Of a DNA stretch of 53,790 nt, positions 39,307 through 53,790 are shown piece after piece. Positions within the stretch are counted from its first letter, which is position 1. Each line of letters opens with the position of its first letter. This DNA is from Prevotella sp. (GTDB taxonomy: Bacteria > Bacteroidota > Bacteroidia > Bacteroidales > Bacteroidaceae). The position numbers and the translations under genes are program-made. The DNA is taken from positions 1-53,790 of the forward strand of contig JAFVFY010000031.1 in NCBI GenBank assembly GCA_017475265.1. The letters run 5' to 3'. The notes under the pieces are model-generated. The model saw nothing but the letters and a program-made list of their open reading frames with translations, ran no database searches and was not told the DNA's origin.

Positions 39307-39332
39307 CATTCACCTTCAAAAACAAAAGAACA

Positions 39333-39623: not shown

Positions 39624-39626
39624 AGT

Positions 39627-39860: not shown

Positions 39861-39865
39861 ACGCA

Positions 39866-40243
39866 ATGAACAAGACAATTCACATCAAGCGTACCATTGA
39901 CATAGAGATAACTGTGCCGATGGACGAGACGAAACAAGAAACTGAACAATGGATCGACTGGAATTTCAGAGCAGACGGAACATTGGAGAAAGTGGACTTA
40001 AACCATATCATCAGGAACATCAAACTGGCACCCACCGAGGATGACCAGGATTCGGTGATTGTGGTTAGCTGGCCTGAATCGCAAGAACTTTCAGCGTATG
40101 AAGGCTTTTACGAGAACTGTGACTTTATCTGTGGGGACACCATCGAGCCGTGTTCATACCTTGTCAACAAGAACTGGTATGGCAAGCTCCTTAACGGTGA
40201 ACTCCAGAAGATTGAGGAATACGAAACCTGTGATGCGGCATGA
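39866..40243 (+). CDS. Unknown element protein (125 aa), RTIDIEI N-terminus
   Basis: A soluble acidic protein with beta-rich N-terminus (HIKRTIDIEITVPMDE, then WIDWNFRADG). The same pattern, QRTIEIQMSTQDE then FVDCNYLVEG, opens the product of the gene at 41728, so the two may be related in their first 40 residues. The rest (VIVVSWPESQELSAYEGFYE, FICGDTIEPCSYLVNKNWYG) is unique. Its last bases overlap the next small gene (ATGA). Confidence 0.65.
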   Translation: MNKTIHIKRTIDIEITVPMDETKQETEQWIDWNFRADGTLEKVDLNHIIRNIKLAPTEDDQDSVIVVSWPESQELSAYEGFYENCDFICGDTIEPCSYLVNKNWYGKLLNGELQKIEEYETCDAA

Positions 40244-40323
40244 AAGCAATACTATTCAATATTCACGACGAGGTTTGGAGCCTGTTTATTAACTATCCCG
40301 ACTTCTTTTTTGTGGTATTATGA
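40240..40323 (+). CDS. Micro-protein (27 aa), coupled on both sides
   Basis: ATG 40240 overlaps the previous stop (ATGA) and its stop TGA 40321-40323 overlaps the next start at 40320. The peptide reads MKAILFNIHDEVWSLFINYP followed by DFFFVVL, aromatic and hydrophobic at the end. Double overlap is the main support. No family is known; it could instead be a leader that couples translation of its neighbours. Confidence 0.45.
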   Translation: MKAILFNIHDEVWSLFINYPDFFFVVL

Positions 40324-41009
40324 TGAATCACTCACAGGTAAAGGAGATAGTGGAGAAATCAATCCACGACTCTCAGAACTACAACTTCATGGTCACTATG
40401 GCTAATGGTGACAAGAAGAAAATGCGTATGTTTATTTCCGAAGGTGGCTGGGTATGCGAGTTTAAGAAGCGTTCCCGTACCAGAGGAAGGTGCATATCGT
40501 GTGAAGAACTCTGGAAATCGGTAGTTCCCATCAACAGGGACACCGATAAGGTCAGAGTTTGCAAGCGGAACACTAAGAGTATCATCAAGTACCTCACGGC
40601 AAGCGGTTTTTGGCCAGACATTTTGGAGAATATGACAAAACTGCAGGATTTGAGCGACGAGGATTTGAAGTACCTCTATGAGTGTGAATACGACGAGCAT
40701 AATACATTTATGGAGAAAAAGGGCATTGAGCATATTTCGCCTGACATGTATGACAGCTTATCCTCTCAACGTGGCATCATCACTATAAATTGGGGAAGAG
40801 GTCACGACTGGATCAAGAGGGGCTGGTTAAACGCCCTGAATGAGAAACATAAGTATTCTATGCGTTGGACTGTCTCTTATGACAACAGCGTAGAGTATAA
40901 TCCTGACGGCAACAGAGCATGGTATTCGGAAGAGTATCGGGGATGTGGGAACGGTCACTACTACCTGCTCCTAGATGAAAAGCATGCAGCCTTCAGGGAA
41001 GATGATTAA
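40320..41009 (+). CDS. Unknown element protein (229 aa)
   Basis: A soluble protein without a recognised family. Features are a Cys-containing basic part (WVCEFKKRSRTRGRCISCEE), a helical middle (LQDLSDEDLKYLYECEYDEH) and a C-terminal aromatic part (RWTVSYDNSVEYNPDGNRAW, CGNGHYYLLLDEKHA). Start MM at 40320 is shared with the previous stop; the second ATG (40323) is equally possible. A gap of 25 bp separates it from the next gene. Confidence 0.65.
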   Translation: MMNHSQVKEIVEKSIHDSQNYNFMVTMANGDKKKMRMFISEGGWVCEFKKRSRTRGRCISCEELWKSVVPINRDTDKVRVCKRNTKSIIKYLTASGFWPDILENMTKLQDLSDEDLKYLYECEYDEHNTFMEKKGIEHISPDMYDSLSSQRGIITINWGRGHDWIKRGWLNALNEKHKYSMRWTVSYDNSVEYNPDGNRAWYSEEYRGCGNGHYYLLLDEKHAAFREDD

Positions 41010-41034
41010 ATATAACAATTAAAAACGAAAGACA

Positions 41035-41508
41035 ATGAACATCAATCAATTCATTTTCACAAGAACGCAGTCCAAGAAGAAAATCGAGGCAATCGAGAAT
41101 CTATCTAACGACGAGCTGCTTGATGTGACGGAATCAACGGTCAAGAAAATGATTCAAGAAGTTGGCCAGAGACGTTACAAAAGTAGAGACAAGGATCTCC
41201 GTATCGACTATGACAGAAGATGCGGAAATAGCTGGAACTCAACGGTGGAGAGTGTCAATTTGGTAAAGGGTAAACTATACGTTTCTTTCTACATTCAATA
41301 CGAGAACACCGATACCAACACTTCTGATGATTACGATAATTTCTTCAAACGGAGCAATTACCGTGGAGAGATCAGACGACTTGACAGACATGGAAACGGA
41401 CGAACTTACTACTTCTGCTATGACGAGAGCGATAAGGCAAGGGTAATGAAGTCCATTCTGCTCGAATATGTGTATAGTAAGTATGCCGATAAATTAAAGG
41501 AGGCTTGA
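41035..41508 (+). CDS. Unknown element protein (157 aa)
   Basis: A soluble protein with a helical N-terminal half (KKKIEAIENLSNDELLDVTE, VKKMIQEVGQRRYKSRDKDL) and a beta-rich second half (VNLVKGKLYVSFYIQYENTD, RTYYFCYDESDKARVMKSIL). No family is recognised. The end of the gene carries AAAGGAGG, the Shine-Dalgarno site of the next gene. Confidence 0.65.
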   Translation: MNINQFIFTRTQSKKKIEAIENLSNDELLDVTESTVKKMIQEVGQRRYKSRDKDLRIDYDRRCGNSWNSTVESVNLVKGKLYVSFYIQYENTDTNTSDDYDNFFKRSNYRGEIRRLDRHGNGRTYYFCYDESDKARVMKSILLEYVYSKYADKLKEA

Positions 41509-41510
41509 CT

Positions 41511-41735
41511 ATGGCTGCAAGGAAAGAAACTCCAGCTCAGAAGAAACGCCGTTTGCAGATGGAATTCCTCTACGGCAAAGAAAATGCTAAGAAATCAATG
41601 TACCAGACCGTTCACCACGTACACCATGAGACGGTTAGGCATTGTGATTATTGTGGGAAACCAATGACCCGTAGTGACGTTAACGATTATGGCTCACTCT
41701 GTGAAGCCTGTTATATGAAGGAATACTATGGGTAG
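41511..41735 (+). CDS. Zinc-ribbon protein (74 aa)
   Basis: A small basic protein with a His-rich segment (YQTVHHVHHETVRH) and two CxxC pairs (CDYCGKPMT and CEACYMKEYYG), expected to bind one zinc ion. The ATG at 41511 is fixed by a strong AAAGGAGG Shine-Dalgarno site (41496-41503), rare in this group. It starts 3 bp after the previous stop and overlaps the next gene by 8 bp. A DNA- or RNA-binding role is possible but not shown. Confidence 0.65.
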   Translation: MAARKETPAQKKRRLQMEFLYGKENAKKSMYQTVHHVHHETVRHCDYCGKPMTRSDVNDYGSLCEACYMKEYYG

Positions 41736-42285
41736 GCCAAAAGCATTCAGGAATTTCAAGGTTCAGAGAACCATTGAGATTCAAATGAGTACCCAAGACG
41801 AGAAGCTGACACAAGAGGACGCAGAGCGTTTTGTTGACTGCAATTATCTTGTCGAGGGGAGATTTGATGGAAAGTATAAGGACTTCTTCTTCTTTTGCAG
41901 GACGGAGTTTAGATACAGACCATTTACGCAACGAGAGAAACTGGATCATTTCGTCGAGGACTTTATTATCTGCCCGAAAGAAGTTGGGATTGACTTGACA
42001 GACCGACGAGACTACGAAAAAAAACAGGAAGAACTTGAACTATACTTTGACTTCTATGACGGCATTGCATACGAATGTGATGAAGATGGAAGCAGGGTAT
42101 CATTCAGACCTCTCATTATCCTCTATCCGACCATTGAGATATGTGAATCAATACCAGAACTGAAGGAACAGGTGGAAAATTATGTAGGAGAAGCTGCTTG
42201 GGACGGCATCAACTACCATGACATCGCCCTGACCTTCGGCAAAGTACACAGAACAGACGCATTTCAATATTATGGTGATAAGTGA
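41728..42285 (+). CDS. Unknown element protein (185 aa), RTIEIQM N-terminus
   Basis: An acidic soluble protein. The first 50 residues (FKVQRTIEIQMSTQDEKLTQ, FVDCNYLVEGRFDG) resemble those of the 125-residue product at 39866. Later segments are aromatic and acidic (YKDFFFFCRTEFRYRPF, LELYFDFYDGIAYECDED). No family is recognised. It overlaps both neighbours (8 bp before, 14 bp after), a mark of coupled translation. Confidence 0.65.
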   Translation: MGRPKAFRNFKVQRTIEIQMSTQDEKLTQEDAERFVDCNYLVEGRFDGKYKDFFFFCRTEFRYRPFTQREKLDHFVEDFIICPKEVGIDLTDRRDYEKKQEELELYFDFYDGIAYECDEDGSRVSFRPLIILYPTIEICESIPELKEQVENYVGEAAWDGINYHDIALTFGKVHRTDAFQYYGDK

Positions 42286-42412
42286 AACATTGTATCACAA
42301 CATCGAAATCTGTTTGAGAAATCTGATGGATGAAGATGACGAGGGAAGAAAGCAAAGGATTATAAGGCACATCCTACATTCCCTCAGAGAGAATTGTATA
42401 ACAGAAGATTAA
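42272..42412 (+). CDS. Small helical protein (46 aa)
   Basis: ATG 42272 lies inside the end of the previous gene and opens MVISETLYHNIEICLRNLMD then EDDEGRKQRIIRHILHSLRE and NCITED before TAA 42410-42412. It is predicted to be a helical pair with a charged turn. The next gene starts 10 bp later. The overlap and helix-like composition support it; no family is known. Confidence 0.5.
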   Translation: MVISETLYHNIEICLRNLMDEDDEGRKQRIIRHILHSLRENCITED

Positions 42413-42421
42413 CAAAAGAGT

Positions 42422-42661
42422 ATGGATAAACATTTATATGACAAGCTCTTCCAGGAATATGTAGACTATGTGGTTGACATCATTCGGAAGAAGGGTATCA
42501 AGACAGCGAAAGGATTAAAGGACACCGTGAGAAGAAACATCAACCGTGTGGATCTCAGGTTGTGCCGGGTAGTAATGGCTAATAACGCAAGATTCGGAGC
42601 CTTCCTTGATGACACTTACGAGTCTGTGGGACTGGCGACGGACATAGTAATTGACGATTAG
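42422..42661 (+). CDS. Small basic helical protein (79 aa)
   Basis: MDKHLYDKLFQEYVDYVVDI then IRKKGIKTAKGLKDTVRRNI: a basic, helical, soluble protein with an acidic last segment (DTYESVGLATDIVIDD). No family is recognised. It is 3 bp before the YopX gene. Confidence 0.6.
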   Translation: MDKHLYDKLFQEYVDYVVDIIRKKGIKTAKGLKDTVRRNINRVDLRLCRVVMANNARFGAFLDDTYESVGLATDIVIDD

Positions 42662-42663
42662 AA

Positions 42664-43101
42664 ATGAGAAAATACAGATTCAGAGGGCAAGATGTGAACG
42701 GTTGGCATTATGGCGACTTGCAACATCGAAAGACTGTTTTGCTCCATCGGGTAGGAATAACTATCGAGAACCGAGGAACAACGGTATTCTACACTTGCAA
42801 TCCTAACTCCATCGGGGAAGGGACGGGCATCATGGATATAAATGCCGAAAAAGCAAGCGACACCACCAATGAGATATTTGAGGGTGACATTCTGAGGATG
42901 CCAGACCGTGAGAATTTCCATTCGGAGATAATCGGCCTGGTAGTGTATCATAACGGCTCCTATGTATTGGCGAGTGATCCAAGCAATATCGAGACATGCA
43001 GCAAATGGAATCTCTATGACGCAGTTCATAGCCAGAAAGCCTATGTCATCGGTAACATCATGGATAACCCGGAACTACTGAGGGGCTATATAAAAGAATA
43101 A
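42664..43101 (+). CDS. YopX family protein
   Basis: A 145-residue member of the YopX family found in phages and mobile elements. The start MRKYRFRGQDVNGWHYGDLQ (the RGKR..W.YGDL pattern), the middle EIFEGDILRMPDRE, and the end VIGNIMDNPELLRGY fit the family closely. Its role is not established; members are typical early or accessory phage proteins. This is one of the clearest phage signatures in the element. Confidence 0.85.
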   Translation: MRKYRFRGQDVNGWHYGDLQHRKTVLLHRVGITIENRGTTVFYTCNPNSIGEGTGIMDINAEKASDTTNEIFEGDILRMPDRENFHSEIIGLVVYHNGSYVLASDPSNIETCSKWNLYDAVHSQKAYVIGNIMDNPELLRGYIKE

Positions 43102-43117
43102 TCAAAAACATAACGAC

Positions 43118-43459
43118 ATGGGATATAGACTTCATGTAGCCAAGGTGTATAAAGTAGAATTTGCACTTGGCGACGCTTTCAACTACAAGGTCGAGGAATT
43201 TCACTCACTGCTTTCTGCCTGTGATGCTACATATACAGGCGAATCATACGACGCGGACTTTGAAGTGACGAAAGAAGATTGGAAGAAGGTTATCGACAAG
43301 CTAAAGCACCTGTACGACCTCCCCGAAGATGAAAGGGATGAGATAAAGGGTGCCATTGATGACCTTGGAAGTACGACTGACGAGGTAATTCACATGCTGG
43401 AATACTTCTTAGATAGTGCAGAACCAAACAGTGATTACCTACACTTAGCATTTTTCTGA
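43118..43459 (+). CDS. Unknown element protein (113 aa)
   Basis: A soluble acidic protein (MGYRLHVAKVYKVEFALGDA, then FNYKVEEFHSLLSACDATY and a helical C-terminal part LDSAEPNSDYLHLAFF). Proteins starting MGYRLHVAK are common in phage-like gene sets of Bacteroidales, function unknown. It is 2 bp before the next gene. Confidence 0.6.
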   Translation: MGYRLHVAKVYKVEFALGDAFNYKVEEFHSLLSACDATYTGESYDADFEVTKEDWKKVIDKLKHLYDLPEDERDEIKGAIDDLGSTTDEVIHMLEYFLDSAEPNSDYLHLAFF

Positions 43460-43461
43460 TA

Positions 43462-43860
43462 ATGGAGAAGATTGAACAACACGACATTGAGACCGGGCAG
43501 TACATACTATCCGTTCTCAGCAGTCAAATGAATGTTGTGGCATCTTGGGGATTCGACCCAAAGACGCTTAGACCTATTAAGGCTGGCATACAATTCCATG
43601 TGCAGGGATTTAAGCACACCGGGAACGTACAAGTCAAGTTGAATGAGGGAGCGGATTTGTTTGAAGTATCACTTATCTCCGAATCTGGAGAAACGGTAGA
43701 TACACACGAATCCATTTACCTTGACGAGCTAATTTCTACAATAGATGATGCTGTAGAGAATGTCGATGGCTACGAGAAAAGAGTTTGTGAGGAATATCCA
43801 AATCTCGTGGACCCCAACAATCCTGATAAAATCAGACCTGTAGAAATTGTAATTCTCTGA
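43462..43860 (+). CDS. Unknown element protein (132 aa)
   Basis: A beta-rich soluble protein (YILSVLSSQMNVVASWGFDP, LRPIKAGIQFHVQGFKHTGN, VQVKLNEGADLFEVSLISES) with an acidic helical segment near the end (YLDELISTIDDAVENVDGYE). No family is recognised. A terminator follows it, closing this gene run. Confidence 0.6.
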   Translation: MEKIEQHDIETGQYILSVLSSQMNVVASWGFDPKTLRPIKAGIQFHVQGFKHTGNVQVKLNEGADLFEVSLISESGETVDTHESIYLDELISTIDDAVENVDGYEKRVCEEYPNLVDPNNPDKIRPVEIVIL

Positions 43861-43866
43861 AAAATG

Positions 43867-43924
43867 GGAATGGGAGATTCTTAAAGATATACCAAAAAGT
43901 AAAATCTGAGAGAATCTCCCTTCC
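43867..43924 (+). terminator. Intrinsic terminator before the serine recombinase gene
   Basis: GGAATGGGAGATTCT (from 43867) pairs with AGAATCTCCCTTCC (to 43924) around a long A-rich loop. A T-containing run (TTCCTTTA) follows. Confidence 0.65.
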
Positions 43925-43982
43925 TTTATCCGTGTTTTCAATAACAAGACGACCGTCTAACAAACGAAAATCATGTTAAAAA

Positions 43983-44687
43983 ATGTATAAAGCAGAAGTG
44001 CTGTATGTGGCTTATCTCAGAGTAAGTACACAACGGCAAGGATATTCAGGATTAGGACTTGAAGCACAGAGGGAAATCATACAGAATTACCTTCGTGAGA
44101 CAAAACCGATTTTTGAGTATGTTGAAGTAGAGAGCGGACGCAAGACCGATAAAGGGCGACCCAAACTGAAAGAAGCATTATCACAGTGCCGGACATACGG
44201 AGCAAAGCTGATTGTAGCAAAGCTCGACCGACTGGCTAGAAACGTGAGCTTCCTGTCAGCTCTCTTAGATTCTGACGTGGAGATAGTATTTTGCGACTTC
44301 CCACAAGCGAACAAGATGGTACTGCATATTCTGGCATCAATCAGCCAGTATGAGGCAGAACTAATCTCTACACGTACCAAACAAGCATTAGCCGCCAAGA
44401 AATCCAGAGGGTGCAAGCTGGGCAACCCGGAGCACTTGATGGATAAGCATAAGGAGGCTATTGAACACAGTAATGAAACCAACAGAAAAAAAGCTGCCGA
44501 CAACCCTAACAACAAAAGGGCTGTGGCTATGCTGAAAGTTCTGGCGGCACAAGGTATGACACTTTCCGAAATGACCGAAACATTGAACAAAGAGGGATTC
44601 GTGACCTCAAAAGGATATGCGTTCAGGCCATCCCAAGTGTATGTCCTAATTAAAAGGTATAACATTGAAAAAATAGAAGATGTCTAA
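43983..44687 (+). CDS. Serine recombinase (resolvase/invertase type)
   Basis: A 234-residue small serine recombinase. The catalytic Ser is S15 (VAYLRVSTQRQ). The arginines in ESGRKTDKGRPKL and KLDRLARNV, the ANKMVLHILASISQYEAELI segment and a C-terminal HTH (MTLSEMTETLNKEGFVTSKG, then YAFRPSQVYVLIKRY) complete the family pattern. It could resolve element multimers or invert a segment. Such a recombinase beside an integrase points to a second, independent DNA-rearranging function. It starts with MYKAEVLYV after a terminator and overlaps the next gene by 8 bp. Confidence 0.9.
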   Translation: MYKAEVLYVAYLRVSTQRQGYSGLGLEAQREIIQNYLRETKPIFEYVEVESGRKTDKGRPKLKEALSQCRTYGAKLIVAKLDRLARNVSFLSALLDSDVEIVFCDFPQANKMVLHILASISQYEAELISTRTKQALAAKKSRGCKLGNPEHLMDKHKEAIEHSNETNRKKAADNPNNKRAVAMLKVLAAQGMTLSEMTETLNKEGFVTSKGYAFRPSQVYVLIKRYNIEKIEDV

Positions 44688-44982
44688 GAACAAACAATTA
44701 TTTCCAGTTTTCGAGACTGACTCCTGGCACAGTACGGCAAAAAAGCGGTTCAGGGGGATTTTTACCTCCAAGACCGCTGCCGTCAATGCCATTGTGAAGA
44801 ACCACGAAATAGATGACCATGAGTTTTTTGAGAACATCCACGAAATGATACCCCTGACTAAGACGGAAAGAGAGGCCGAAATCAAACGGCGACTCAGAAA
44901 GGACTTCGAGGACAGCCTTCAGACACAGGGCTATAGCGTCAACTATGAAATTGAAGTAATCAACTTAAATGAGTGGGACTGA
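44680..44982 (+). CDS. Unknown element protein (100 aa)
   Basis: A soluble charged protein (MSKNKQLFPVFETDSWHSTA, KKRFRGIFTSKTAAVNAIVK, EREAEIKRRLRKDFEDSLQT). The start overlaps the recombinase end by 8 bp. The family is not recognised. Confidence 0.55.
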   Translation: MSKNKQLFPVFETDSWHSTAKKRFRGIFTSKTAAVNAIVKNHEIDDHEFFENIHEMIPLTKTEREAEIKRRLRKDFEDSLQTQGYSVNYEIEVINLNEWD

Positions 44983-45050
44983 TGATTAAGGAACTTATTA
45001 ACCGCTACTATGATTGGGTATGGCGTGTAGCCGAACCATCATTGTACTAA
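44982..45050 (+). CDS. Possible micro-protein (22 aa)
   Basis: ATG 44982 overlaps the previous stop (TGATG) and opens MIKELINRYYDWVWRVAEPS then LY and TAA. It is Trp/Tyr-rich. The overlap is the only support; it may instead be a spacer. Confidence 0.3.
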   Translation: MIKELINRYYDWVWRVAEPSLY

Positions 45051-45063
45051 AACGAAAACAGCA

Positions 45064-45636
45064 ATGTTAGACAAAGAACCGTACATGTCTGGGAAAATCG
45101 TCTTTTGGCGATCCCTGGGCGTAAACATTGGCTTTTTCAAGAGATTCGACACTCCCCAAGGTGGGGGTGAGTATTGGAAGAGCCAAGGCTATGTACCCAT
45201 TTCATCCGAAAGACAAGGACAGAGGTGGGCAGACCCTAACGATCTCTATTCCCCTGCTGATGCTTTCAAGCGGTGGGGAAATGAGATTAACCCTCTGATG
45301 GCGATATTCACGGAAGCACGAGAGTCCGTTTTAAACGCCATTGCAAAGTATGTCTGGAACACCAAGGAGAAGCGTATAAGGCTTGACATAGGCGTAACAG
45401 ATTACAACGAAGATAACGGCATGTTGTATCATCGGCACTATACATCTATTTATATGGAGCACTACATCTGCATCGTGGAATACAAGGAATCACCGAAGAT
45501 TGCCGACTACCTGAGCGATGACGAGTATGTAGAACCAGAGACCGTGACAGAGCCGATAGAAGATATGTCGTTAGACAGACTTTTCGAGATTATTAACTTT
45601 ATAACAGATCAGAACAATGGAAACGAAAAACATTAA
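45064..45636 (+). CDS. Unknown element protein (190 aa)
   Basis: A soluble protein with aromatic and basic parts (GKIVFWRSLGVNIGFFKRFD, RWADPNDLYSPADAFKRWGN, AKYVWNTKEKRIRLDIGVTD) and a more acidic C-terminal quarter (VEPETVTEPIEDMSLDRL). No family is recognised. It overlaps the next gene by 20 bp. Confidence 0.6.
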   Translation: MLDKEPYMSGKIVFWRSLGVNIGFFKRFDTPQGGGEYWKSQGYVPISSERQGQRWADPNDLYSPADAFKRWGNEINPLMAIFTEARESVLNAIAKYVWNTKEKRIRLDIGVTDYNEDNGMLYHRHYTSIYMEHYICIVEYKESPKIADYLSDDEYVEPETVTEPIEDMSLDRLFEIINFITDQNNGNEKH

Positions 45637-45904
45637 CAACCAGGGTGGAGCTACGATTGTTACGCTTCATCCATCAAAGACGGCACAGGCTATTATCTAC
45701 AGCAATGAGCAGCGTGCCAAAGTAGTACAACTTATAAGGCACGGATTCCTCCCGCATCACACATCGGTTGGAACAGGGGAAACCAAGGAAGGCTTCTGGG
45801 GCGTGGAGAAATGCCGTGGACGCTTCGGGAAAGGCTTCAAGATGATTACAAAGTCCCCCTATAGTACGAACTTCAATCACCTTACCTATTTTACAATCGC
45901 ATGA
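45617..45904 (+). CDS. Unknown element protein (95 aa)
   Basis: A small basic protein (ATIVTLHPSKTAQAIIYSNE, VVQLIRHGFLPHHTSVGTGE, TKEGFWGVEKCRGRFGKGFK). The start is inside the previous gene's 3' end. It ends 3 bp before the Api92-like gene. No family is recognised. Confidence 0.6.
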   Translation: METKNINNQGGATIVTLHPSKTAQAIIYSNEQRAKVVQLIRHGFLPHHTSVGTGETKEGFWGVEKCRGRFGKGFKMITKSPYSTNFNHLTYFTIA

Positions 45905-45907
45905 GAT

Positions 45908-46498
45908 ATGGCTAATTGGTGTTATACGTCTTATGTGATAGACGGGAAGAGGAAAGAAGTTCAGAGCTTGTACAGCAAAATGAACTATCTGGAAATGAGA
46001 AAGAAACCTTTGGTAGGCAATGACTTCGGGAAAACGTGGCTGGGATGCCTTGTCACGAAACTCGGCGGCAACTGGCATGAAGTCTATTGCAGGGGATCAT
46101 GGAGCGATTTGCAGTATGACGGAGGCACACTCTCTTTTAATACTGTTACTGCCAATGGACCGATGAATGAGGTTTTCAAATTCATTAAGAACATCTATCC
46201 ATCCTTGGAGATATACTATTGTGCCGAAGAGGATGGATGGGGCTACTACGCGACTAATGACGTTCAGGGTTTACATTTCCCTGAACGATTCAAGGTCGAA
46301 TCTGAATGGGAAACAGAGTACCCGACTAGTATTGAGAACGCTTGCAGTTATGTGTCTAAGCTTATAGGAAAGGAAGTCAAGACCAGGGAAGAGCTTGAAA
46401 AAGCTGTCGAGGAATGGAACGACAATCTTAGCATGGACGATGACGACAAGCGAATATACTTTCACGAATATATAGTTGAGGAAAATGAATACCTATGA
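45908..46498 (+). CDS. Api92-like (DUF1281-type) protein
   Basis: A 196-residue soluble protein whose start MANWCYTSYVIDGKRKEV fits the (M)(A/P)NWC(S/Y) signature of Api92-like ferredoxin-fold proteins from phages and plasmids. Then follow WHEVYCRGSWSDLQYDGGTL, YYCAEEDGWGYYATNDVQGL and an acidic C-terminal tail. Family members bind no known ligand and have no established function. It overlaps the next gene by 14 bp. Confidence 0.65.
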   Translation: MANWCYTSYVIDGKRKEVQSLYSKMNYLEMRKKPLVGNDFGKTWLGCLVTKLGGNWHEVYCRGSWSDLQYDGGTLSFNTVTANGPMNEVFKFIKNIYPSLEIYYCAEEDGWGYYATNDVQGLHFPERFKVESEWETEYPTSIENACSYVSKLIGKEVKTREELEKAVEEWNDNLSMDDDDKRIYFHEYIVEENEYL

Positions 46499-46676
46499 GT
46501 TTAACGTAACGGTAGAAGGCTCGACATTCAAAACTTACACACAGTCGAACAATCCGAGCTATGCCTACCAGAAAGCCAGAAGATTATATCCGACGGCAAG
46601 TAATATCCACTTAATAAAACTTATAAAAAATGAGCATATTCACAGACAACGCAGATTTCTACCCGACACCCAATGA
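46485..46676 (+). CDS. Unknown element protein (63 aa)
   Basis: ATG 46485 (MNTYEFNVTVEGSTFKTYTQ) is chosen over an ATG three codons earlier; both lie inside the previous gene. The protein is short and basic (PSYAYQKARRLYPTASNIHL). Its last 47 bases overlap the truncated methyltransferase in another frame, so one of the two may be non-functional. Confidence 0.5.
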   Translation: MNTYEFNVTVEGSTFKTYTQSNNPSYAYQKARRLYPTASNIHLIKLIKNEHIHRQRRFLPDTQ

Positions 46677-46824
46677 GGTAATCGGGCAGATGATGATGGG
46701 CGAAGATTTCCTTGGAAAAACCATTCTTGAACCATCAGCTGGGAAAGGAAACATCGTGGACTGGCTTAAAGCTCAAAGGCTGGGAATTACCCAAGAAAGC
46801 AGCATAAATAAGTCAAATCTATAA
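46630..46824 (+). pseudogene. Truncated N6-adenine-type DNA methyltransferase (N-terminal part)
   Basis: The 64 codons encode MSIFTDNADFYPTPNEVIGQ then MMMGEDFLGKTILEPSAGKG and NIVDWLKAQRLGITQ. FYPTP and the motif I-like ILEPSAGKGNIV (SAM-binding loop) are those of a Bacteroidales element methyltransferase that normally runs to several hundred residues. Here it ends after about 52 recognisable residues at a short unrelated tail. The catalytic (D/N)PP(Y/F) motif is absent, so the protein is almost certainly inactive. A deletion junction is expected near 46780. Confidence 0.75.
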
Positions 46825-46836
46825 ACTTCAAGAATT

Positions 46837-46953
46837 ATGAGAAGATCAACAAGATTTTTGCTGAGGGTTGCAATAACAATAGTGACTTATGTCATATTGG
46901 TAGACCCTTGGCCATTAAACAAGAAAGAGTATGAAAGAAACTATGGAATCTAA
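46837..46953 (+). CDS. Small membrane protein (38 aa)
   Basis: ATG 46837 opens MRRSTRFLLRVAITIVTYVI then LVDPWPLNKKEYERNYGI, stopping at 46951-46953. One membrane helix (about residues 7-24) behind a positive N-terminus, then a short polar tail: the layout of a phage-type small membrane protein. It overlaps the next gene by 23 bp. No family is recognised. Confidence 0.5.
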   Translation: MRRSTRFLLRVAITIVTYVILVDPWPLNKKEYERNYGI

Positions 46954-47290
46954 GAAAGACCCTGTTGATGTGCTGAGAGAGGAAATCATGACACATCCTG
47001 ATTTAGAGAAGTTCTTCACGGAAAAGGTTGGAATGAGCCTGAAACAGTACATGGCTGGCTATGTCATAAGCAATACCGACGTGGACGAACTTGTAGATGA
47101 ACTTGATTTGCAGCACTCCAGGTGTTGCTCTCATTGCGGGAAAGCTATGTATGAGGGATTCTGTATAGAGAACGGAGCCGAATACTATTGTTCGGAAGAG
47201 TGTCTGCATAAGCACTTGACAGAAGAGGAATATGAAGAACTCTACGATGACGGCAGGGGAGATTCATATTGGACGAGCTGGCTGGACTGA
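46931..47290 (+). CDS. Zinc-finger element protein (119 aa)
   Basis: A soluble acidic protein. A helical N-terminal half (DPVDVLREEIMTHPDLEKFF, then MSLKQYMAGYVISNTDVDEL) precedes a Cys-rich finger: CCSHCGKAMYEGFCIENG then YYCSEECLHKHLTEEE. Those Cys pairs resemble a FCS/MYND-like zinc finger. A second ATG at 46943 is possible. It is the last gene before the 540-bp gap that precedes the SHOCT operon. Confidence 0.65.
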   Translation: MKETMESKKDPVDVLREEIMTHPDLEKFFTEKVGMSLKQYMAGYVISNTDVDELVDELDLQHSRCCSHCGKAMYEGFCIENGAEYYCSEECLHKHLTEEEYEELYDDGRGDSYWTSWLD

Positions 47291-47828: not shown

Positions 47829-49055
47829 ATGTCACACCTTTTAAAAACCGCCAGTCAAGCAATATTATTATTGTTAGTTATTTTTGGTTGTTCTGATAGC
47901 AGCCTCATTTCAAAAAAGAGAAATCCGTATGAACGTGATTATCTTGCCGTAAAATACTCAAAGGATGATTATTGGAGTATCGTTGACAAGGATGGCAACA
48001 TTGTAGTCAAGGAAGAATATTCTCCAAACGACTATCTATCAGCAATTTACGATGGAGCTTACTGGGTTAAGAGTAATGGAAAGTTTCAGTTATATAACGT
48101 TGAATCACCCAAAAAGCCAGTAAATAATGAGGAATTCGATGAAGTAACAGACTTTACTTGTGGCGTTGCAGCAGTTTCAAAGAACGGAAGCCCCATTCAG
48201 ATAATAAACACTAAAGGTGTCATTGTTGCCACATTACCAGATTCTGTTGTAACGGCATCCCAATTTGGTTTTCAAGGTTATTCTGTCGTTGAAAACGTTT
48301 CCTCTGTTAGTGTAGTAGACAGTAAGGGAAATTTTGTGTTGCAAGGGAAACTTTTTGCGACTTTATTTGACAACATCATTTTATATGTTGACCCCGATAA
48401 AGAAGAAACCCTAATGACTGCTGACTTGGAAGGGAACAAATTGGGGGAATTTAGCATGTACAAATGGAGTTGTGCGAGTCTGTATTATTCTGAAGGCGAA
48501 CTGGCTGTGTACGAGCATCTGCCAAACTCAGAAGAGCCAATTGAAGATGCCCCTATATCCATTATTGACGCAAAAGGACAGAAACTATTCGATCTAAAAA
48601 AATCTTATGCTAAGAACTGTATGGGAGCACTCTATAGAGACGGTTTAATAACATATAGGGCTAAAGATATGGCCTATGGGGTAGCAAATGAGACAGGAGA
48701 AGATGTTATACGTCCCAAATATCAAGAACTGATAGAGAATGGTGACAAATATTACATAGCCAAGAAGAACAACAAGTATGGGATAATTGATACAGAGGAA
48801 AATGTCATAGTTCCTTTTGAATATGACAACGCATTCCTTGTGAGACTGAGAGATAATTTCTTGTTAATGCAGGATAGCAAAGTATATATCGTTGACATGA
48901 ATGGAAAGGAATTGAATAAAGATGGGTTTGCTCTTTTTGCGTACAATATCGGAACCCAAGTGAAAACTGGAAAGAATATTAAAAGGCAGGAAGATGTCTA
49001 CCCTCAAAGTGAAGATTATGAAATAACTCTTGAAGATCTTGGAAAAGATAATTAA
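47829..49055 (+). CDS. WG-repeat lipoprotein, first gene of the SHOCT operon
   Basis: A 408-residue lipoprotein. The signal MSHLLKTASQAILLLLVIFG ends in a lipobox (IFGC), so it sits in the periplasm or outer membrane. The mature part has about nine WG-type beta repeats (WSIVDKDGNIVVKEEY, YGIIDTEENVIVPFEYDNAF, YGVANETGEDVIRPKYQELI), a fold that forms a binding platform in other systems. It starts the run of six genes with 2-20 bp gaps. Its job may be to sense or bind an outside ligand and pass the signal to the membrane proteins encoded downstream; this is inference. Confidence 0.85.
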   Translation: MSHLLKTASQAILLLLVIFGCSDSSLISKKRNPYERDYLAVKYSKDDYWSIVDKDGNIVVKEEYSPNDYLSAIYDGAYWVKSNGKFQLYNVESPKKPVNNEEFDEVTDFTCGVAAVSKNGSPIQIINTKGVIVATLPDSVVTASQFGFQGYSVVENVSSVSVVDSKGNFVLQGKLFATLFDNIILYVDPDKEETLMTADLEGNKLGEFSMYKWSCASLYYSEGELAVYEHLPNSEEPIEDAPISIIDAKGQKLFDLKKSYAKNCMGALYRDGLITYRAKDMAYGVANETGEDVIRPKYQELIENGDKYYIAKKNNKYGIIDTEENVIVPFEYDNAFLVRLRDNFLLMQDSKVYIVDMNGKELNKDGFALFAYNIGTQVKTGKNIKRQEDVYPQSEDYEITLEDLGKDN

Positions 49056-49075
49056 AAGACAACGGCTTTATAATT

Positions 49076-50125
49076 ATGGATCAGAGCTCAAAAATAGACA
49101 AGCTTGTAGAACTTCAAAAACTGCTTGAAGCAGGAGTGCTGACAAAGGAAGAACTGGAAGAACAGAAAAAAAAGATTCTCGAAACAAAAGAGAATGAAGA
49201 ACCCGAATCACCTTCAATTATTGATAGTGAAGAGTTGGCTCCTGAGACTTCTTTCTTTCAAAAGTATAAAATAGCAATAGTGGGAGCATCGGCAATCATA
49301 ATAGTTGCATTACTTTCCTTCCTGTTTTTTCAAAAAGGGCAGTCATCACAAAACATTTCAAATGATTCGGAAGAAGAAGCCCAGTCTATAGTTGCCGAAG
49401 CTGAGCAAGACTCTATATATTTAGTAAACTCTGTTACAGAAGAGTTACACTATATTTTCTGTTTCAAAATTCAAGGAGAGGCGGTTTCTGGTTATGCGAA
49501 GATGGCTGGCAATTCCTCCCGTGCATCGCTTGAAGGAACCATTGACAAAGATCGGTGGCTTATAATAAGAGTAACTGAAGATAAAGAAACTGGAAGATTT
49601 GAAGGGAAACTAGATTCTGACAGTTTTAGCGGAACACTTTTCCCCCCAAATGGTAAGGAAACAACTTCTTGGAATGCAAAAAGGATGACAAAAGAGCAAG
49701 TAAACGAGTTGGAAAATAAAGTAAATGAATTGTTAGCTCGTATGCCTGTTGTCAATGAGAATCAACAAGAATCGGACAACTATTCTTTCACTGGCGTTAT
49801 ACAAGGTGGTGATAAACAATATACTTTTACCATGTCACTTGGTATTGAAAATGACGGTAATGTAACAGGCTATTACTATGTGACAAATGGAGAGAACAAA
49901 CCAGTTGAATTAAGTGGCCAAGTAGAAGAATGGGCAGACAACCTACAGGGGAATATTACATTATACGAATTCGATTCAGCTACCCATAAAGCAACAGGAT
50001 ATTATTTCCAAGGATTTCTTAGTATCGAACATTCTGAACTAGGTAGATTTGCTGGTTACTCTATTGAAGGCTATTACAAAAACAGTGATAAAATTAATTG
50101 GCCATTTACTGCACAAACTGAATAA
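49076..50125 (+). CDS. SHOCT - TM - twin beta-domain membrane protein
   Basis: A 349-residue single-pass protein. The N-terminal SHOCT module (KIDKLVELQKLLEAGVLTKE then ELEEQKKKILE, about 6-36) lies in the cytoplasm. An acidic linker, one membrane helix (KIAIVGASAIIIVALLSFLF, about 63-86), and two related beta domains outside follow. Domain 1 is at about 120-210 (EGTIDKDRWLIIRVTEDKET, LDSDSFSGTL). Domain 2 is at about 235-345 (LSGQVEEWADNLQGNITLYE). The product at 52476 has a third copy of this domain type. The family is not named to my knowledge. The SHOCT consensus matches the other four proteins of the operon. Confidence 0.8.
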   Translation: MDQSSKIDKLVELQKLLEAGVLTKEELEEQKKKILETKENEEPESPSIIDSEELAPETSFFQKYKIAIVGASAIIIVALLSFLFFQKGQSSQNISNDSEEEAQSIVAEAEQDSIYLVNSVTEELHYIFCFKIQGEAVSGYAKMAGNSSRASLEGTIDKDRWLIIRVTEDKETGRFEGKLDSDSFSGTLFPPNGKETTSWNAKRMTKEQVNELENKVNELLARMPVVNENQQESDNYSFTGVIQGGDKQYTFTMSLGIENDGNVTGYYYVTNGENKPVELSGQVEEWADNLQGNITLYEFDSATHKATGYYFQGFLSIEHSELGRFAGYSIEGYYKNSDKINWPFTAQTE

Positions 50126-50143
50126 CTAAAATAAATAAATAGT

Positions 50144-50878
50144 ATGGAAGGTTTATTAGTAATTATCGGAATAATCGTTTCTGTATTCATTCTTAAAGAA
50201 CTTTTCAAGAAAAAGAATCCTTTCTTGAAAAGGCGTGGTGTCGCGGGGTTATTTATTGCACCTGTGTTACAAATTGCATGTATGGGAATCTTCCTATATG
50301 ACGCGCTCCATCCAAACCTGGTTAATACTAACAACTTCTGGGGTATGGCGTTGTCTTTTATAAATGAACAGCGTGGAAGTAATGCTGAAAGTCTCTACTA
50401 TGAATCTTTTGCTACTTTTTCCGCCGTTGCTAAAATATGCTTCTTAATTACCATTTGCTCGGCAGGCTATCTGATTTACAAATTATTTGATGACGATGAA
50501 TGTAATAAGTCTCTAATGAAAATTCTTATAGGAATTGGTACTGTGGCTTGTCTTGTTACTATCTATTTTAACGGCCAGTTCTTTACAAGCTTCATGCACT
50601 ATCTTGGACAAAAATCCGATGATATGTTCATTATCTCTTTCTTAATTATAGCTGCGGCAATTTTATTGTGGGCCTGGTACTATTTATCCGCTACATTGAA
50701 AGACATTCTAGCATTGTCAACATCGGAAAGTGAAGTGATGCCAACAATTACGACAAATAGTGAGAACACGATAGCAAACAAGACACAAGACCTAATAAAG
50801 TTGAAAAATCTTCTTGATTCGGGAGTACTGACACAAGAAGAATTTGATATACAAAAAAAACAAATTTTAAACTCATAA
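50144..50878 (+). CDS. Multi-pass membrane protein with C-terminal SHOCT
   Basis: A 244-residue protein with about five membrane helices (LLVIIGIIVSVFILKELF at 3-20; LFIAPVLQIACMGIFLYDAL near 36; ICFLITICSAGYLIYKLF; LIGIGTVACLVTIYFNGQFF; FLIIAAAILLWAWYYLSATL). After a Ser/Thr/Asn-rich linker the C-terminal SHOCT module (DLIKLKNLLDSGVLTQEEFD then IQKKQILNS, about 216-244) is cytoplasmic if the N-terminus is outside, which the Lys-rich loop after helix 1 supports. The family is unrecognised. It is 18 bp after the previous gene and 7 bp before the next. Confidence 0.8.
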   Translation: MEGLLVIIGIIVSVFILKELFKKKNPFLKRRGVAGLFIAPVLQIACMGIFLYDALHPNLVNTNNFWGMALSFINEQRGSNAESLYYESFATFSAVAKICFLITICSAGYLIYKLFDDDECNKSLMKILIGIGTVACLVTIYFNGQFFTSFMHYLGQKSDDMFIISFLIIAAAILLWAWYYLSATLKDILALSTSESEVMPTITTNSENTIANKTQDLIKLKNLLDSGVLTQEEFDIQKKQILNS

Positions 50879-50885
50879 AGAAAAA

Positions 50886-51341
50886 ATGAAAACAAAATCT
50901 GTCGCTCTTCTTCTTACTTTTTTTCTTGGATGCTTTGGTGTCCACTGGTTTTACTTGGGTAAAAGTACAAAAGGTGCTATATATCTTTGCATTGGTGCTG
51001 TGGGATTATTTCTATGGATTCCATTATTAATAACAGGAATTCTTTCTCTTATAGATTTTATAGTAATTGCTTTTACAAGTGAAGAACGCTTTAATGAAGA
51101 ATTCAATTATGATTATACTCAATCAAGCAAATATCAACAACAGCAGTTTTATCAGAATCCTCAGCCCCAACAGCAACAACCTCAAAATGCCCAATTCCCA
51201 GATCAAAGCCAAAAGACGGCTCAAAAGGATGACTTTGCTCAAAAGGCAGATAGGCTGAAAGACTTGAAATCTCTGTTGGATGCTGGTGTTTTGACACAGG
51301 ATGAATTTGATGCAGAAAAGAAAAAAGTGTTGAATTCATAA
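50886..51341 (+). CDS. TM2-domain protein with C-terminal SHOCT
   Basis: A 151-residue protein. The TM2 domain (MKTKSVALLLTFFLGCFGVH then WFYLGKSTKGAIYLCIGAVG, LLITGILSLIDFIVIAFT; about 1-60) forms two membrane helices with the G-x-x-x-x-H-x-F-Y-L-G pattern. A Gln/Pro-rich linker (about 80-110) follows. The SHOCT module (RLKDLKSLLDAGVLTQDEFD then AEKKKVLNS, about 121-151) ends the chain. The TM2 plus SHOCT combination is common in bacteria. Here it is one of five SHOCT proteins in a row. The linker suggests a flexible tether for the SHOCT part. Confidence 0.88.
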   Translation: MKTKSVALLLTFFLGCFGVHWFYLGKSTKGAIYLCIGAVGLFLWIPLLITGILSLIDFIVIAFTSEERFNEEFNYDYTQSSKYQQQQFYQNPQPQQQQPQNAQFPDQSQKTAQKDDFAQKADRLKDLKSLLDAGVLTQDEFDAEKKKVLNS

Positions 51342-51357
51342 ATAGGCAGAACAATAC

Positions 51358-52473
51358 ATGTCATCTGATATATTTTCAAAAAAAGTATCTACGTGGGCAT
51401 TGATAGGGCTGATGATCTTGCCAATAGCTCATGTGGTCGTGTCTTTTTGGGTCATCGATGTAGCTAACGAGGCAATACATCAATGCACAATGGACTATGA
51501 GAAACCTGTAGGTACAGCTCTTAGTGAAAATCTTGGCATATTCAGTGGAGTTGGTGAAGCTATCGAAGATTATCTGAATGACAGTTTTAGTGAAGAGATA
51601 AAGAGTCATCTAGGTGAGGTGGGCGACTTGAAGGACAAGTCTGTATACTTGATGTATGCCAGTTTCCTTTTGTTACTTATTGATATTGCTTGTTTATGGT
51701 TCAGGGAATCTGTCAATAAGTTCGTCCTCAATTTTGCTCGTCTTGCTTTCACAATTGCTATAGGCTATCTTGTATATAATGGGGTTTTGATTGTATATAG
51801 CATATCGTCAAGTAGGTTAGATGCCAAGACTTATGGCTTGTTCGGCCTATTAACAGGCGGTGACAGTTTCGGATATGACATATTGGTAGGGTTTATGTCA
51901 GCAGCCATGTATGTTGCTCCATTGTTAATTCTACACTTCTTATATTATAAGAGTTCATCCAAATATTACGATGTAGAAGAAGATGATGACTATTCGGTAG
52001 AACTCGCTCCTATTGTTCAAACACCTGTCTTGGCACAACAATTCCATCAACCGCAACTTGCGCCTGTTGTTCAAGGCTACTTGGAACAGCCGAATTCTAC
52101 CTCTTCGGAAACAACCGACGAAGATTTGACACGACTCGATGAACTACTGGAGGCTGGCATTCTAACTCCAGAAGAACATGCTGAACAGAGGGGAAAAATA
52201 ATCCCAACGGCACCACAGCAAACAGAACAGGTCGAAAATAATAAAATTGCATTGCTTAGAAACCTGAAATCCCTTCTTGATGCTGACATACTTACTTCCG
52301 AAGAGTATTCAAGTCAGAAAAGTAACATTCTAAGGACATCAACTATTCCTATGTGGAGTGCTGATAAAACAAATGTTGAGACCCTTATTGAATTGAAATC
52401 GTTATTAGATGACAACATACTAACCCAAGAAGAATTCGACTTCCATAAAAAAAGATTAATGAATTCGCTATAG
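51358..52473 (+). CDS. Multi-pass membrane protein with three SHOCT modules
   Basis: A 371-residue protein: membrane helices near 13-33 (LIGLMILPIAHVVVSFWVID), 97-117 (LMYASFLLLLIDIACLWF), 123-150 (LNFARLAFTIAIGYLVYNGV) and 178-200 (ILVGFMSAAMYVAPLLILHF), then an acidic linker. Three SHOCT modules follow: DLTRLDELLEAGILTPEEHA (about 256-282), LLRNLKSLLDADILTSEEYS (about 298-325) and TLIELKSLLDDNILTQEEFD (about 341-371). Three modules in one chain would allow it to bring several SHOCT partners together, so I see it as the scaffold of the complex. This is inference; no family name is known to me. Confidence 0.8.
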   Translation: MSSDIFSKKVSTWALIGLMILPIAHVVVSFWVIDVANEAIHQCTMDYEKPVGTALSENLGIFSGVGEAIEDYLNDSFSEEIKSHLGEVGDLKDKSVYLMYASFLLLLIDIACLWFRESVNKFVLNFARLAFTIAIGYLVYNGVLIVYSISSSRLDAKTYGLFGLLTGGDSFGYDILVGFMSAAMYVAPLLILHFLYYKSSSKYYDVEEDDDYSVELAPIVQTPVLAQQFHQPQLAPVVQGYLEQPNSTSSETTDEDLTRLDELLEAGILTPEEHAEQRGKIIPTAPQQTEQVENNKIALLRNLKSLLDADILTSEEYSSQKSNILRTSTIPMWSADKTNVETLIELKSLLDDNILTQEEFDFHKKRLMNSL

Positions 52474-52475
52474 AT

Positions 52476-53651
52476 ATGAGTGACATAAATAAGACTAAAA
52501 TTGAGAAGCTTTTAGAACTGAAAAAGCTTTATGAAAATGGCATTCTGACAAAAGAGGAAATGGAGGCTGAGAAGCAAAAGATACTCGGCACTACTACACC
52601 CCCTCCTAAACAAAGTATTCCCCATGAGACCAAAGAACCAGTAAAAGAAATTGAAACCTATGACAATATTACCGCTATTGACTCGGAATTTGAAGAGGAC
52701 GAAGAGGAATCATTTTTCAAAAGAAACAAGGTGCTCATTATTCTCTGTATAGTGGCTGGAGTTATTGGCATCTATTTCTTGTTCTCAAAGGTTATACTCC
52801 CTTTAAGTGATGCCGACAAAGAGCACGAGACATTAGCAATAGAAAGGAACCGTGAACCTATTGCAATTAAAGGCAAGATAAACGGTAAGATAGGCTTCAC
52901 TATGCGTTTGAAGTTTAATGGAAGGGAAATAGAAGGCACCGAGCATTATGACAGTCAAAAAGCAGATGCGATTCTCTCTGTAAAGGGTAGCATTGATAAC
53001 GAAGGTTTTATGACCTTACGTGAATTTGATGGCAATAATGAGGCTGGCCTATATAAAGGAAACCTCAGTGCCAATTCGTTTGAAGGCACTTTTACTAACA
53101 CAAAGAACACGGTGTTTCCTTTCTATGCTGATGTTATGAGTGAGAAGGAAATGCAAGCAAGAGAAAAAGACCAGGAAAAAGCTGTTGAAAAAATTGAAAG
53201 AATAGGAACAGTCATTACTTGCCTCGATGGAAAAGTCTATTATTTAAACAAAGATTATTCAGAGGGCAGATATGATAGTCAAGGAGACGATTCCGGAAAA
53301 ATATTTGTTTACGACATTTCCTCTGAATCTACTACTCAAATACCAATACATATCCCATCAGAAGAATTGTATTCAATTGATAATTGGCAATGTAAAGATC
53401 AAAAAATCACCTTTGTTCTCTATGATGTGGGAAGGAATGGGTTTGGCATTGGAAACTATTGTACCGAAGTGAGCCAATATAATATCAAAACAGGTAAATG
53501 GAAAGATATTGCAGAAGGTTGTGCTAGTGCAGAATTCATTGAAAATGGAAAGAAGATAAAAATAACCTGGGCAAGTATTACCAATTATGACGAGGCTACA
53601 GCCGCATTTGAATACGAATATGCATATACGGAAGAAATTATTGAATTATAA
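52476..53651 (+). CDS. SHOCT - TM - beta-domain membrane protein
   Basis: A 391-residue single-pass protein, last of the operon (2-bp gap). The N-terminal SHOCT (KIEKLLELKKLYENGILTKE then EMEAEKQKILG, about 6-37) is followed by an acidic linker, one helix (VLIILCIVAGVIGIYFLFSK, about 88-107), and outside a beta domain (FTMRLKFNGREIEGTEHYDS, VKGSIDNEGFMTLREFDGNN, LSANSFEGTF) of the type found twice in the product at 49076. The C-terminal 180 residues are beta-rich (KVYYLNKDYSEGRYDSQGDD, FVLYDVGRNGFGIGNYCTEV) and may form a propeller-like unit. The chain stops just before an IS fragment, so some truncation cannot be excluded. Confidence 0.8.
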   Translation: MSDINKTKIEKLLELKKLYENGILTKEEMEAEKQKILGTTTPPPKQSIPHETKEPVKEIETYDNITAIDSEFEEDEEESFFKRNKVLIILCIVAGVIGIYFLFSKVILPLSDADKEHETLAIERNREPIAIKGKINGKIGFTMRLKFNGREIEGTEHYDSQKADAILSVKGSIDNEGFMTLREFDGNNEAGLYKGNLSANSFEGTFTNTKNTVFPFYADVMSEKEMQAREKDQEKAVEKIERIGTVITCLDGKVYYLNKDYSEGRYDSQGDDSGKIFVYDISSESTTQIPIHIPSEELYSIDNWQCKDQKITFVLYDVGRNGFGIGNYCTEVSQYNIKTGKWKDIAEGCASAEFIENGKKIKITWASITNYDEATAAFEYEYAYTEEIIEL

Positions 53652-53657
53652 AAATGA

Positions 53658-53790
53658 TTATCCGCAACCAGCCGACAGGTTCCTATTGTAGATGCGATGC
53701 TCAAACTCCGATGTGCAAGCGATGGAAGCTATCATAAGCCTGTCAAACAACTTGTCTCCAAAGTACCTGCGATTGAACTTGTAACAGAAC
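53658..53790 (-). CDS. IS1595-family (ISXO2-like) transposase, C-terminal fragment
   Basis: The reverse strand is open from the window edge to TAA at 53658-53660 and encodes FCYKFNRRYFGDKLFDRLMI then ASIACTSEFEHRIYNRNLSA and GCG. The FC(Y/F)(K/R)(F/L)NRR...FDRL pattern is the end of ISXO2-like transposases. The gene enters from outside the window, so only its last 44 codons are seen. The insertion sequence borders the stop of the last SHOCT gene by a few bases. No terminal inverted repeat could be confirmed. Confidence 0.7.
   Translation of the reverse strand, partial: FCYKFNRRYFGDKLFDRLMIASIACTSEFEHRIYNRNLSAGCG

Follow-up and report, generated by a model that had tools for sequence, protein, structure and literature searches.

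A Prevotella operon with seven SHOCT modules beside integrative-element genes: a possible SHOCT-coupled envelope sensor assembly

Introduction

SHOCT is a short module; the 2013 paper that defined it listed more than a thousand examples (Eberhardt et al. 2013, PMC3581485). In that paper, 89% of SHOCTs are C-terminal, a SHOCT fusion to a carrier was monomeric and did not self-associate when tested for multimerisation, and localisation was proposed by the authors as the role of the module. Localisation or inner-leaflet anchoring was also proposed for SHOCT-like modules in a 2024 study of the PSP system (PMC11237479), and PMC5431838 lists a SHOCT gene next to a Lactococcus garvieae prophage integrase. 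Here, we describe an operon of six genes, W1 to W6, in a 53,790-nucleotide stretch of Prevotella sp. DNA (positions 1 to 53,790 of contig JAFVFY010000031.1, assembly GCA_017475265.1), called the window below. One of the genes encodes a WG-repeat lipoprotein, and the other five encode membrane proteins that together hold seven SHOCTs. The operon may specify a SHOCT-coupled envelope sensor assembly lying beside integrative-element genes as probable cargo, a reading to which we give a little less than an even chance.

Results

Organisation of the operon

W1 to W6 are plus-strand open reading frames (ORFs), all with intact frames, separated by gaps of 20, 18, 7, 16 and 2 bp:

47829..49055, plus strand: W1, WG-repeat lipoprotein, 408 aa; PF14903 in four stretches, E 1.7e-15
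49076..50125, plus strand: W2, SHOCT, one helix and two beta domains, 349 aa; sensor type
50144..50878, plus strand: W3, 5-helix membrane protein with C-terminal SHOCT, 244 aa; partner type
50886..51341, plus strand: W4, TM2 domain and C-terminal SHOCT, 151 aa; partner type
51358..52473, plus strand: W5, 4-helix membrane protein with three C-terminal SHOCTs, 371 aa; partner type
52476..53651, plus strand: W6, SHOCT, one helix, beta domain and C-terminal part, 391 aa; sensor type

ORFs and profiles agree with the first-pass annotation, made from the DNA letters, in which six plus-strand genes with 2-20 bp gaps had been read as a WG lipoprotein and five SHOCT membrane proteins. The WG beta repeat (PF14903) of W1 scores 57.1 bits, above the curated cut-off of 25.6, and the W1 signal sequence ends in ...VIFGC, a lipobox as judged by eye. 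In W4, both TM2 (PF05154, E 1.4e-10, 41.6 bits, above the cut-off of 27.9) and SHOCT (PF09851, E 7e-9) were matched, and in W5 PF09851 was matched in three stretches (E 1.3e-14). Simple hydropathy gives 1, 5, 2, 4 and 1 hydrophobic segments for genes 2 to 6. These helix counts are compatible with a cytoplasmic SHOCT in each of W2 to W6, as had been proposed for all five, while flanking charges back this side for gene 3 (W3) and give no decision for the other genes. The G+C content falls from 0.51 to the left of the element described below to 0.40-0.45 across the element genes, and is lowest, at 0.36-0.39, within the operon. A Bacteroides-type promoter pattern, with five matches elsewhere in the window, was not found before W1. 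Within the window genome, the beta-domain and multi-helix profiles match only inside the operon, and WG repeats are also matched on three further contigs.

A PF09851 search of the whole 4.75-Mb genome returned seven matches at E≤0.001, every one of them in the W1-W6 operon, a clustering that is therefore far from chance. The search confirms the seven modules in five proteins that had been counted from the letters:

49097..49180, plus strand: SHOCT 1 (W2), sensor subtype TKEEL
50792..50869, plus strand: SHOCT 2 (W3), partner subtype TQEEF
51249..51332, plus strand: SHOCT 3 (W4), partner subtype TQDEF
52126..52200, plus strand: SHOCT 4 (W5a), TPEEH
52255..52332, plus strand: SHOCT 5 (W5b), TSEEY
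52381..52461, plus strand: SHOCT 6 (W5c), partner subtype TQEEF
52503..52586, plus strand: SHOCT 7 (W6), sensor subtype TKEEM

The SHOCTs are C-terminal in W3-W5 and N-terminal in W2 and W6. Two of the seven single genome matches are above the Pfam curated cut-off of 27 bits. Scored as whole proteins, W3 (32.5 bits), W4 (35.6) and W5 (53.8) exceed this cut-off, and W2 (22.1) and W6 (18.3) stay below it with the SHOCT motif nonetheless plain. In a structure model of W6, which is poor over its remainder, residues 3-20 and 26-37 are helical, with a predicted local distance difference test score (pLDDT) of about 62-79 over residues 1-40.

Two SHOCT subtypes

Among 22 SHOCTs of family loci compared with a strict motif (7 from sensors, 15 from partners), position 18 is Met or Leu in all seven sensor modules and in 0 of the 15 partner modules, where it is Phe (13), Tyr (1) or His (1). 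The partners counted include a short Leyella SHOCT-helix protein that has no outer domain, and family single genes in L084 (Phe) and L085 (Tyr) fall outside the 15. As a background, 18 SHOCTs of order-level membrane ORFs show no Met or Leu at this position (Phe in 14, Tyr in 4). In Leyella, the sensor SHOCT keeps the sensor letter and the two other SHOCTs the partner letter, though all three are N-terminal. With a looser motif, applied to loci of at least 1500 bases, 49 distinct motifs were found in membrane ORFs. Nine of these have Met or Leu: seven belong to the sensors, one to a chance ORF in L044 and one to an exception, L096. The pattern was spotted by eye before it was counted, and most of the sensors came from searches containing a sensor SHOCT. 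The sensor SHOCTs form a subtype of their own, marked by Met or Leu at one position, which suggests that SHOCTs of different proteins join to each other.

A recurring partner-sensor pair

An adjacent pair, a membrane protein with a C-terminal SHOCT directly followed by a SHOCT-helix-outer-domain protein, is present in the window (W5-W6) and in L053, L054, L081 and L095, with gaps of 2-8 bp within the pair across the five loci. The outer domains vary among the pairs. The window has the beta domain, the sensor of L053 (L053:5614-6993, Paraprevotella) has a DUF3298-like domain (E 2.9e-4, 22.1 bits, below the cut-off of 24.1), L081 carries a relative of the L053 domain (E 7.3e-41), and L054 and L095 have others. 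The gene order in Leyella runs from a SHOCT protein with seven helices through a separate beta-domain protein (E 1.6e-6, profile built without that protein), a SHOCT-helix protein and a SHOCT-helix-outer-domain protein to a lipoprotein.

A W5 search of 201 family genomes gave matches in three, two of them through SHOCT only, and a search with the sensor-type alignment gave matches in 15 of 301 genomes. Eleven stretches from ten of these 15, together with a further G042 piece, were examined. Adjacent SHOCT genes are present in at least 4 of the 301 genomes (the window genome, G069, G042 and G593), and among 584 candidate stretches at least three were confirmed in named genomes, from uncultured Paraprevotella (G069), Leyella stercorea DSM 18206 and uncultured Prevotella. 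Lone SHOCT membrane genes also occur (G593 C1, G625, G660, G064 and G072). The first-pass annotation had asked whether the same gene order lies in other genomes and whether the proteins occur singly and unlinked in relatives. The six-gene set was in none of the loci examined outside the window; lone SHOCT genes do exist, yet the pair recurs as a unit.

At the level of the order, SHOCT matches were found in 114 of 393 genomes. With the window genome left out, SHOCT genes lie within 5 kb of each other in at least 7 of the 31 genomes with several matches (5 genera), compared with 0.18 genomes expected under even placement and a maximum of 4 in 20,000 simulations. In clusters from other families, neighbouring SHOCT proteins often carry the module at the same end. 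The clustering of SHOCT genes above chance is one of three results suggesting that the proteins are joined through SHOCT. One other-family operon (L043:4171-9916, G239) comprises genes for four membrane proteins with SHOCT, of which one has TPR-like repeats; a type IIG restriction gene adjoins it, and a recombinase-like gene (by eye) lies further along.

A fusion-like relative without SHOCT

The genome G080, which was picked up through the element gene MANWC rather than through a SHOCT, has an element core followed by a WG lipoprotein gene (homologous to W1, E 1.1e-19) and, after 12 bp, a gene for a 777-aa protein. In this protein, a linker of about 95 residues separates a multi-helix part from a single helix, which is followed by a W6-type beta domain (E 1.3e-11, profile built without the fusion and W6). 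A Pfam scan of the protein showed no SHOCT. Its helix part was compared pairwise with those of five partners, with 63 unrelated membrane segments as controls in both directions. The scores with the L082 partner (84) and with W5 (70), whose helix part thus resembles the N-terminus of the fusion, are above all 63 controls, the highest control scores being 60 for the fusion, 52 for L082 and 51 for W5. The fusion helix part is above the controls for two of the five partners. The 777-aa protein looks like both partners of the pair fused, without SHOCT. Since neighbours that are separate elsewhere are fused in G080, partner and sensor may act together, and the lack of SHOCT where the two are joined suggests that it was SHOCT that did the joining.

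The beta domain

The beta domain is about 94 residues long, with two copies in W2 and one in W6:

49439..49687, plus strand: beta domain, W2 copy 1
49775..50119, plus strand: beta domain, W2 copy 2, weaker (6.6e-6 to 0.09, profiles built without that copy)
52860..53144, plus strand: beta domain, W6

The domain of W2 is found at E 9.1e-15 by a profile built without W2, and the domain is present in 23 of 251 family genomes. As judged by eye, it stands behind one helix on Ser/Thr kinase-like proteins (L131, L134 and L089:5255-7561) and on zinc-ribbon-like proteins (L136, L138, L142, L143 and L144), and further beta-domain ORFs are lipoprotein-like or of other make-up. As a kinase or ribbon precedes the helix and beta domain elsewhere, SHOCT takes that place in W2- and W6-type proteins. 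A sequence search of the PDB gave nothing better than E 0.12 and no solved relative, and the beta domain looks like an unnamed outer domain of the family. The C-terminal part of W6 has a weak likeness to Leyella L094:10010-10882 (E 0.0019).

Integrative-element genes beside the operon

To the left of W1 lie the genes of a small integrative element, and W6 is followed by an insertion sequence (IS):

30210..47290, plus strand: integrative-element genes (integrase, DUF3871, Sak annealing protein, exonuclease-like, YopX, resolvase, MANWC)
45908..46498, plus strand: MANWC gene, a name coined here
53653..53790, minus strand (strand of the reading frame by eye): terminus of a multi-copy IS, inside which the window ends

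The IS starts within about 4 bases of the W6 stop codon, and the assembly contains three other near-identical copies, of which two lie at contig ends. The right edge of the window is therefore an assembly break, and the operon may once have had more genes. The earlier reading of this place as a mobile-element edge beside an IS is accordingly given up, and the right end of the window was rejected as an element edge.

Placement inside an element comes from relatives, in which related operons lie as cargo within delimited elements, as the first-pass annotation had supposed. In uncultured Paraprevotella (G069), a 108-bp exact repeat holding tRNA-Arg(ccg) (contig 9, positions 17697 and 38931; L161, L162) delimits 21.2 kb, within which lie the SHOCT pair and an ORF that looks, by eye, like an integrase. 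In G080 (L117/L159/L160), a 27-bp repeat delimits 28.5 kb that include an integrase and the WG and fusion genes; IS66-like genes (by eye) are also present. Element core genes are common to the window, G080, G069, Leyella, G050, G126, G154 and G054. The operon is thus probable cargo of the small integrative element whose genes it adjoins. Three of the ten element proteins scanned are from G080 and seven from the window. The genes of a complete prophage (capsid, portal, terminase or tail) were absent from these ten, and none was noticed on visual inspection of the genes listed for the delimited elements. A search of the window's own genome with the primase of one relative, as a trace of the rest of the element, gave nothing, and the gene may simply be absent.

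The MANWC protein has no Pfam or PHROG match at E≤0.001. It is matched in 21 of 201 family genomes; in several elements its gene neighbours a resolvase, and it occurs in other settings too. Among 17 MANWC loci examined, from 15 of the 21 genomes, five hold other core genes (G126, G154, G080, G050 and G054). The cargo at these five is the WG-plus-fusion pair in G080, a lipoprotein in G126 and neither in the other three; the G126 lipoprotein, cut by the contig start, has the outer domain of the L095 sensor (E 7.6e-8). A motif scan found a SHOCT membrane gene in 0 of the 17 loci. Outside the five, L112:6216-9404 (G149) encodes a WG protein like W1 (E 8.6e-18) behind two multi-helix genes without SHOCT.

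Elsewhere in the window, 2542-12045 encodes a 3167-aa protein with three Laminin_G_3 stretches, and 20338-23382 encodes an M6-type peptidase with a C-terminal type I dockerin, which is unusual for the group.

Comparison with defence genes and mobile DNA

Against PADLOC-DB, the six proteins gave weak matches (best, W3 'Effector 2TM' at 0.0018; W3 Csx1 at 0.011; W2 at 0.042), and those of W2 and W3 were taken as chance, as were HisKA_7TM in W3 (Pfam E 0.003), CARD in W5 (Pfam E 0.023) and a gliding-motility domain in W5 (NCBIfam 2.5e-4, 21.5 bits against a cut-off of 55). The operon DNA had no match in plasmids and phages, nor had the W5 and W6 proteins in plasmids and phages or W2 in phages. 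Viral contigs queried with W6, W3, A3, the Leyella sensor and W5 yielded two SHOCT-only matches and nothing else. Given the weak PADLOC matches and the lack of plasmid or phage matches to the operon DNA, the phage defence suggested in the first-pass annotation is a candidate function at most. Defence-type genes adjoin two relatives, with PDC-S05 in the Leyella element and the type IIG restriction gene by the G239 operon, and these neighbours leave exclusion or defence possible. In Leyella, L094:5433-6449 (RhuM-like by eye) is the gene matching the defence candidate PDC-S05 and L094:819-1853 is a Fic-type gene matching PDC-S04/SoFic, both beside the SHOCT operon.

Discussion

An assembly of the W1-W6 proteins is likely, and their outer parts look like sensor domains. 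W2 and W6 would be single-pass sensors with SHOCT inside, one helix and the beta domain outside, and W3, W4 and W5 would be multi-helix membrane partners with their C-terminal SHOCTs inside. The outer domain would sense, the helix linking SHOCT to the inner face. Beneath the inner membrane, the sensor SHOCT would pair with a partner SHOCT of the opposite subtype, an interaction that would couple the outer domain to the multi-helix partner, which would give the output. W5, with its three SHOCTs, could hold several sensors, and the WG lipoprotein W1 may be an outer accessory. Gene order, domains, SHOCT subtypes, the recurring pair, one fusion-like relative and related operons in delimited elements can be read from the sequence, and topology, physical SHOCT-SHOCT pairing and signalling are what we infer from them as the best explanation. 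A wider proposal, in which SHOCT is a heterotypic coupling plug whose sensor and partner subtypes join under the inner membrane, with elements reassorting sensors and outputs and a fusion making SHOCTs dispensable, is doubtful but still carries some weight. The first-pass annotation had let the modules dock on each other as parts of one complex. The fusion-like relative and the subtypes favour such joining. The premise that SHOCT is thought to mediate oligomerisation is not supported, since in the 2013 paper it was put to the test with a monomer as the result (PMC3581485); 'oligomerisation domain' is thus rejected as an established role.

Several observations weigh against the envelope sensor assembly. 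The published direct test (PMC3581485) showed no self-association of one SHOCT, with unlike SHOCTs lying outside that test, and the W6 structure model is poor overall (mean pLDDT 41). The likeness of the G080 fusion to the partners is uneven. Its helix part scores only 50 against W3, a value reached by 2 of 63 controls, 54 against the L053 partner (2 of 63 controls, or 5 of 63 with the partner's own controls) and 44 against the L054 partner (8 of 63), although the L053 partner, with its much lower score, is 69% identical to the L082 partner. W3, whose helix part shows weak similarity to other partners, is not similar to W5 (score 38, reached by 22-27 of 63 controls). Profiles built without the fusion failed to rank it first, a profile-profile comparison of its helix part with the partners was weak, and a second fusion was not found, the 12 of 295 order genomes that matched doing so through the beta or C-terminal part only. 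As for the subtypes, the SHOCT rows compared share descent, and L096, a viral-contig protein with two helices that came from the search with sensor SHOCTs, has a C-terminal SHOCT with Met that the strict motif had missed. All three Leyella SHOCTs are N-terminal. Furthermore, three of the six family SHOCT operons (L054 with L092, L081 and L095) have no core element gene in the stretches examined, L054 starting at a contig start; the element is therefore one home of such operons and not the sole one.

The monomeric fusion of 2013 agrees with SHOCT as a localisation tag that attaches to the inner leaflet or to a single host protein common to all modules, with the proteins side by side and without SHOCT-SHOCT contact, and localisation or inner-leaflet anchoring is what PMC3581485 and PMC11237479 propose. 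An anchor would, however, be largely superfluous for proteins with helices of their own, the two SHOCT subtypes are split by protein type (with L096 as the one exception), and the fusion-like relative lacks SHOCT where the partners are joined, which leaves the tag unlikely. The split by protein type, together with six intact and tightly spaced frames, a pair order repeated in five loci and the fusion-like relative, also speaks against a passive pile-up, in which recombination would have gathered SHOCT membrane genes in the element without any complex; differing gene content between loci, the existence of lone SHOCT genes and the lack of another six-gene copy in the loci examined are what such a pile-up would predict, and we consider it quite improbable.

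Phage or element exclusion, in which the lipoprotein and outer domains would recognise an invader and the multi-helix proteins would block entry or act on the membrane, names an output and is compatible with the sensor-assembly reading. Related operons sit in integrative elements, outer domains vary from locus to locus, the PDC-S05 candidate lies in the Leyella element and a type IIG restriction gene beside the other-family four-SHOCT operon, and PMC5431838 places a SHOCT gene beside the Lactococcus garvieae prophage integrase. Set against the weak PADLOC matches of the six proteins (none better than E 0.0018), three family loci without an element gene nearby and the 17 MANWC loci without a SHOCT membrane gene in the motif scan, these points leave exclusion unlikely. 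It is a guess, with odds well below even, that the output of the sensor assembly shields the host of the element against other phages or elements, whether through exclusion or through some membrane response.

If heterotypic pairing is true, Bacteroidales integrative elements carry a modular sensor system. Under the plug proposal, the operon, with its seven modules, would be the richest seen here of a mobile, modular and unnamed envelope-surveillance system, and a widespread domain would be explained. The loci form a natural experiment in their subtype rule, adjacent pair and SHOCT-free fusion-like relative, and offer small proteins for tests of heterotypic pairing.

Comparison with known systems

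As the first-pass annotation had stated, no described system of this composition is known in the libraries and literature covered. By title and abstract start, the literature mentioning SHOCT held no such operon (subscription papers and preprints lay outside the scope), and nothing useful came from the literature on WG-repeat lipoproteins or on TM2 and exclusion. DUF3298, a domain with a link to RsiV/PdaC, is matched below the cut-off in the outer part of the Paraprevotella sensor and is unmatched in W2 and W6. With the SHOCT proteins of PMC3581485, the operon shares the short, probably two-helix module and the TM2-SHOCT combination listed there. The Results and Discussion of that paper describe single proteins and multi-SHOCT Naegleria proteins, whereas here seven modules of two subtypes lie in five adjacent genes and, unlike those proteins, the operon has a fusion-like relative without SHOCT. 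The PSP/Lia systems of PMC11237479 likewise combine SHOCT-like modules with membrane parts in proposed sub-membrane complexes; PspA, PspC, Toastrack and LiaF are absent from the Pfam and NCBIfam lists of W1-W6 up to E 1. Finally, the one-pass kinase-like and zinc-ribbon-like proteins (L089, L134, L136, L138 and L142-L144) have the same plan of cytoplasmic module, helix and beta domain, whereas the operon described here has SHOCT as the cytoplasmic module and encodes the membrane partners next door.

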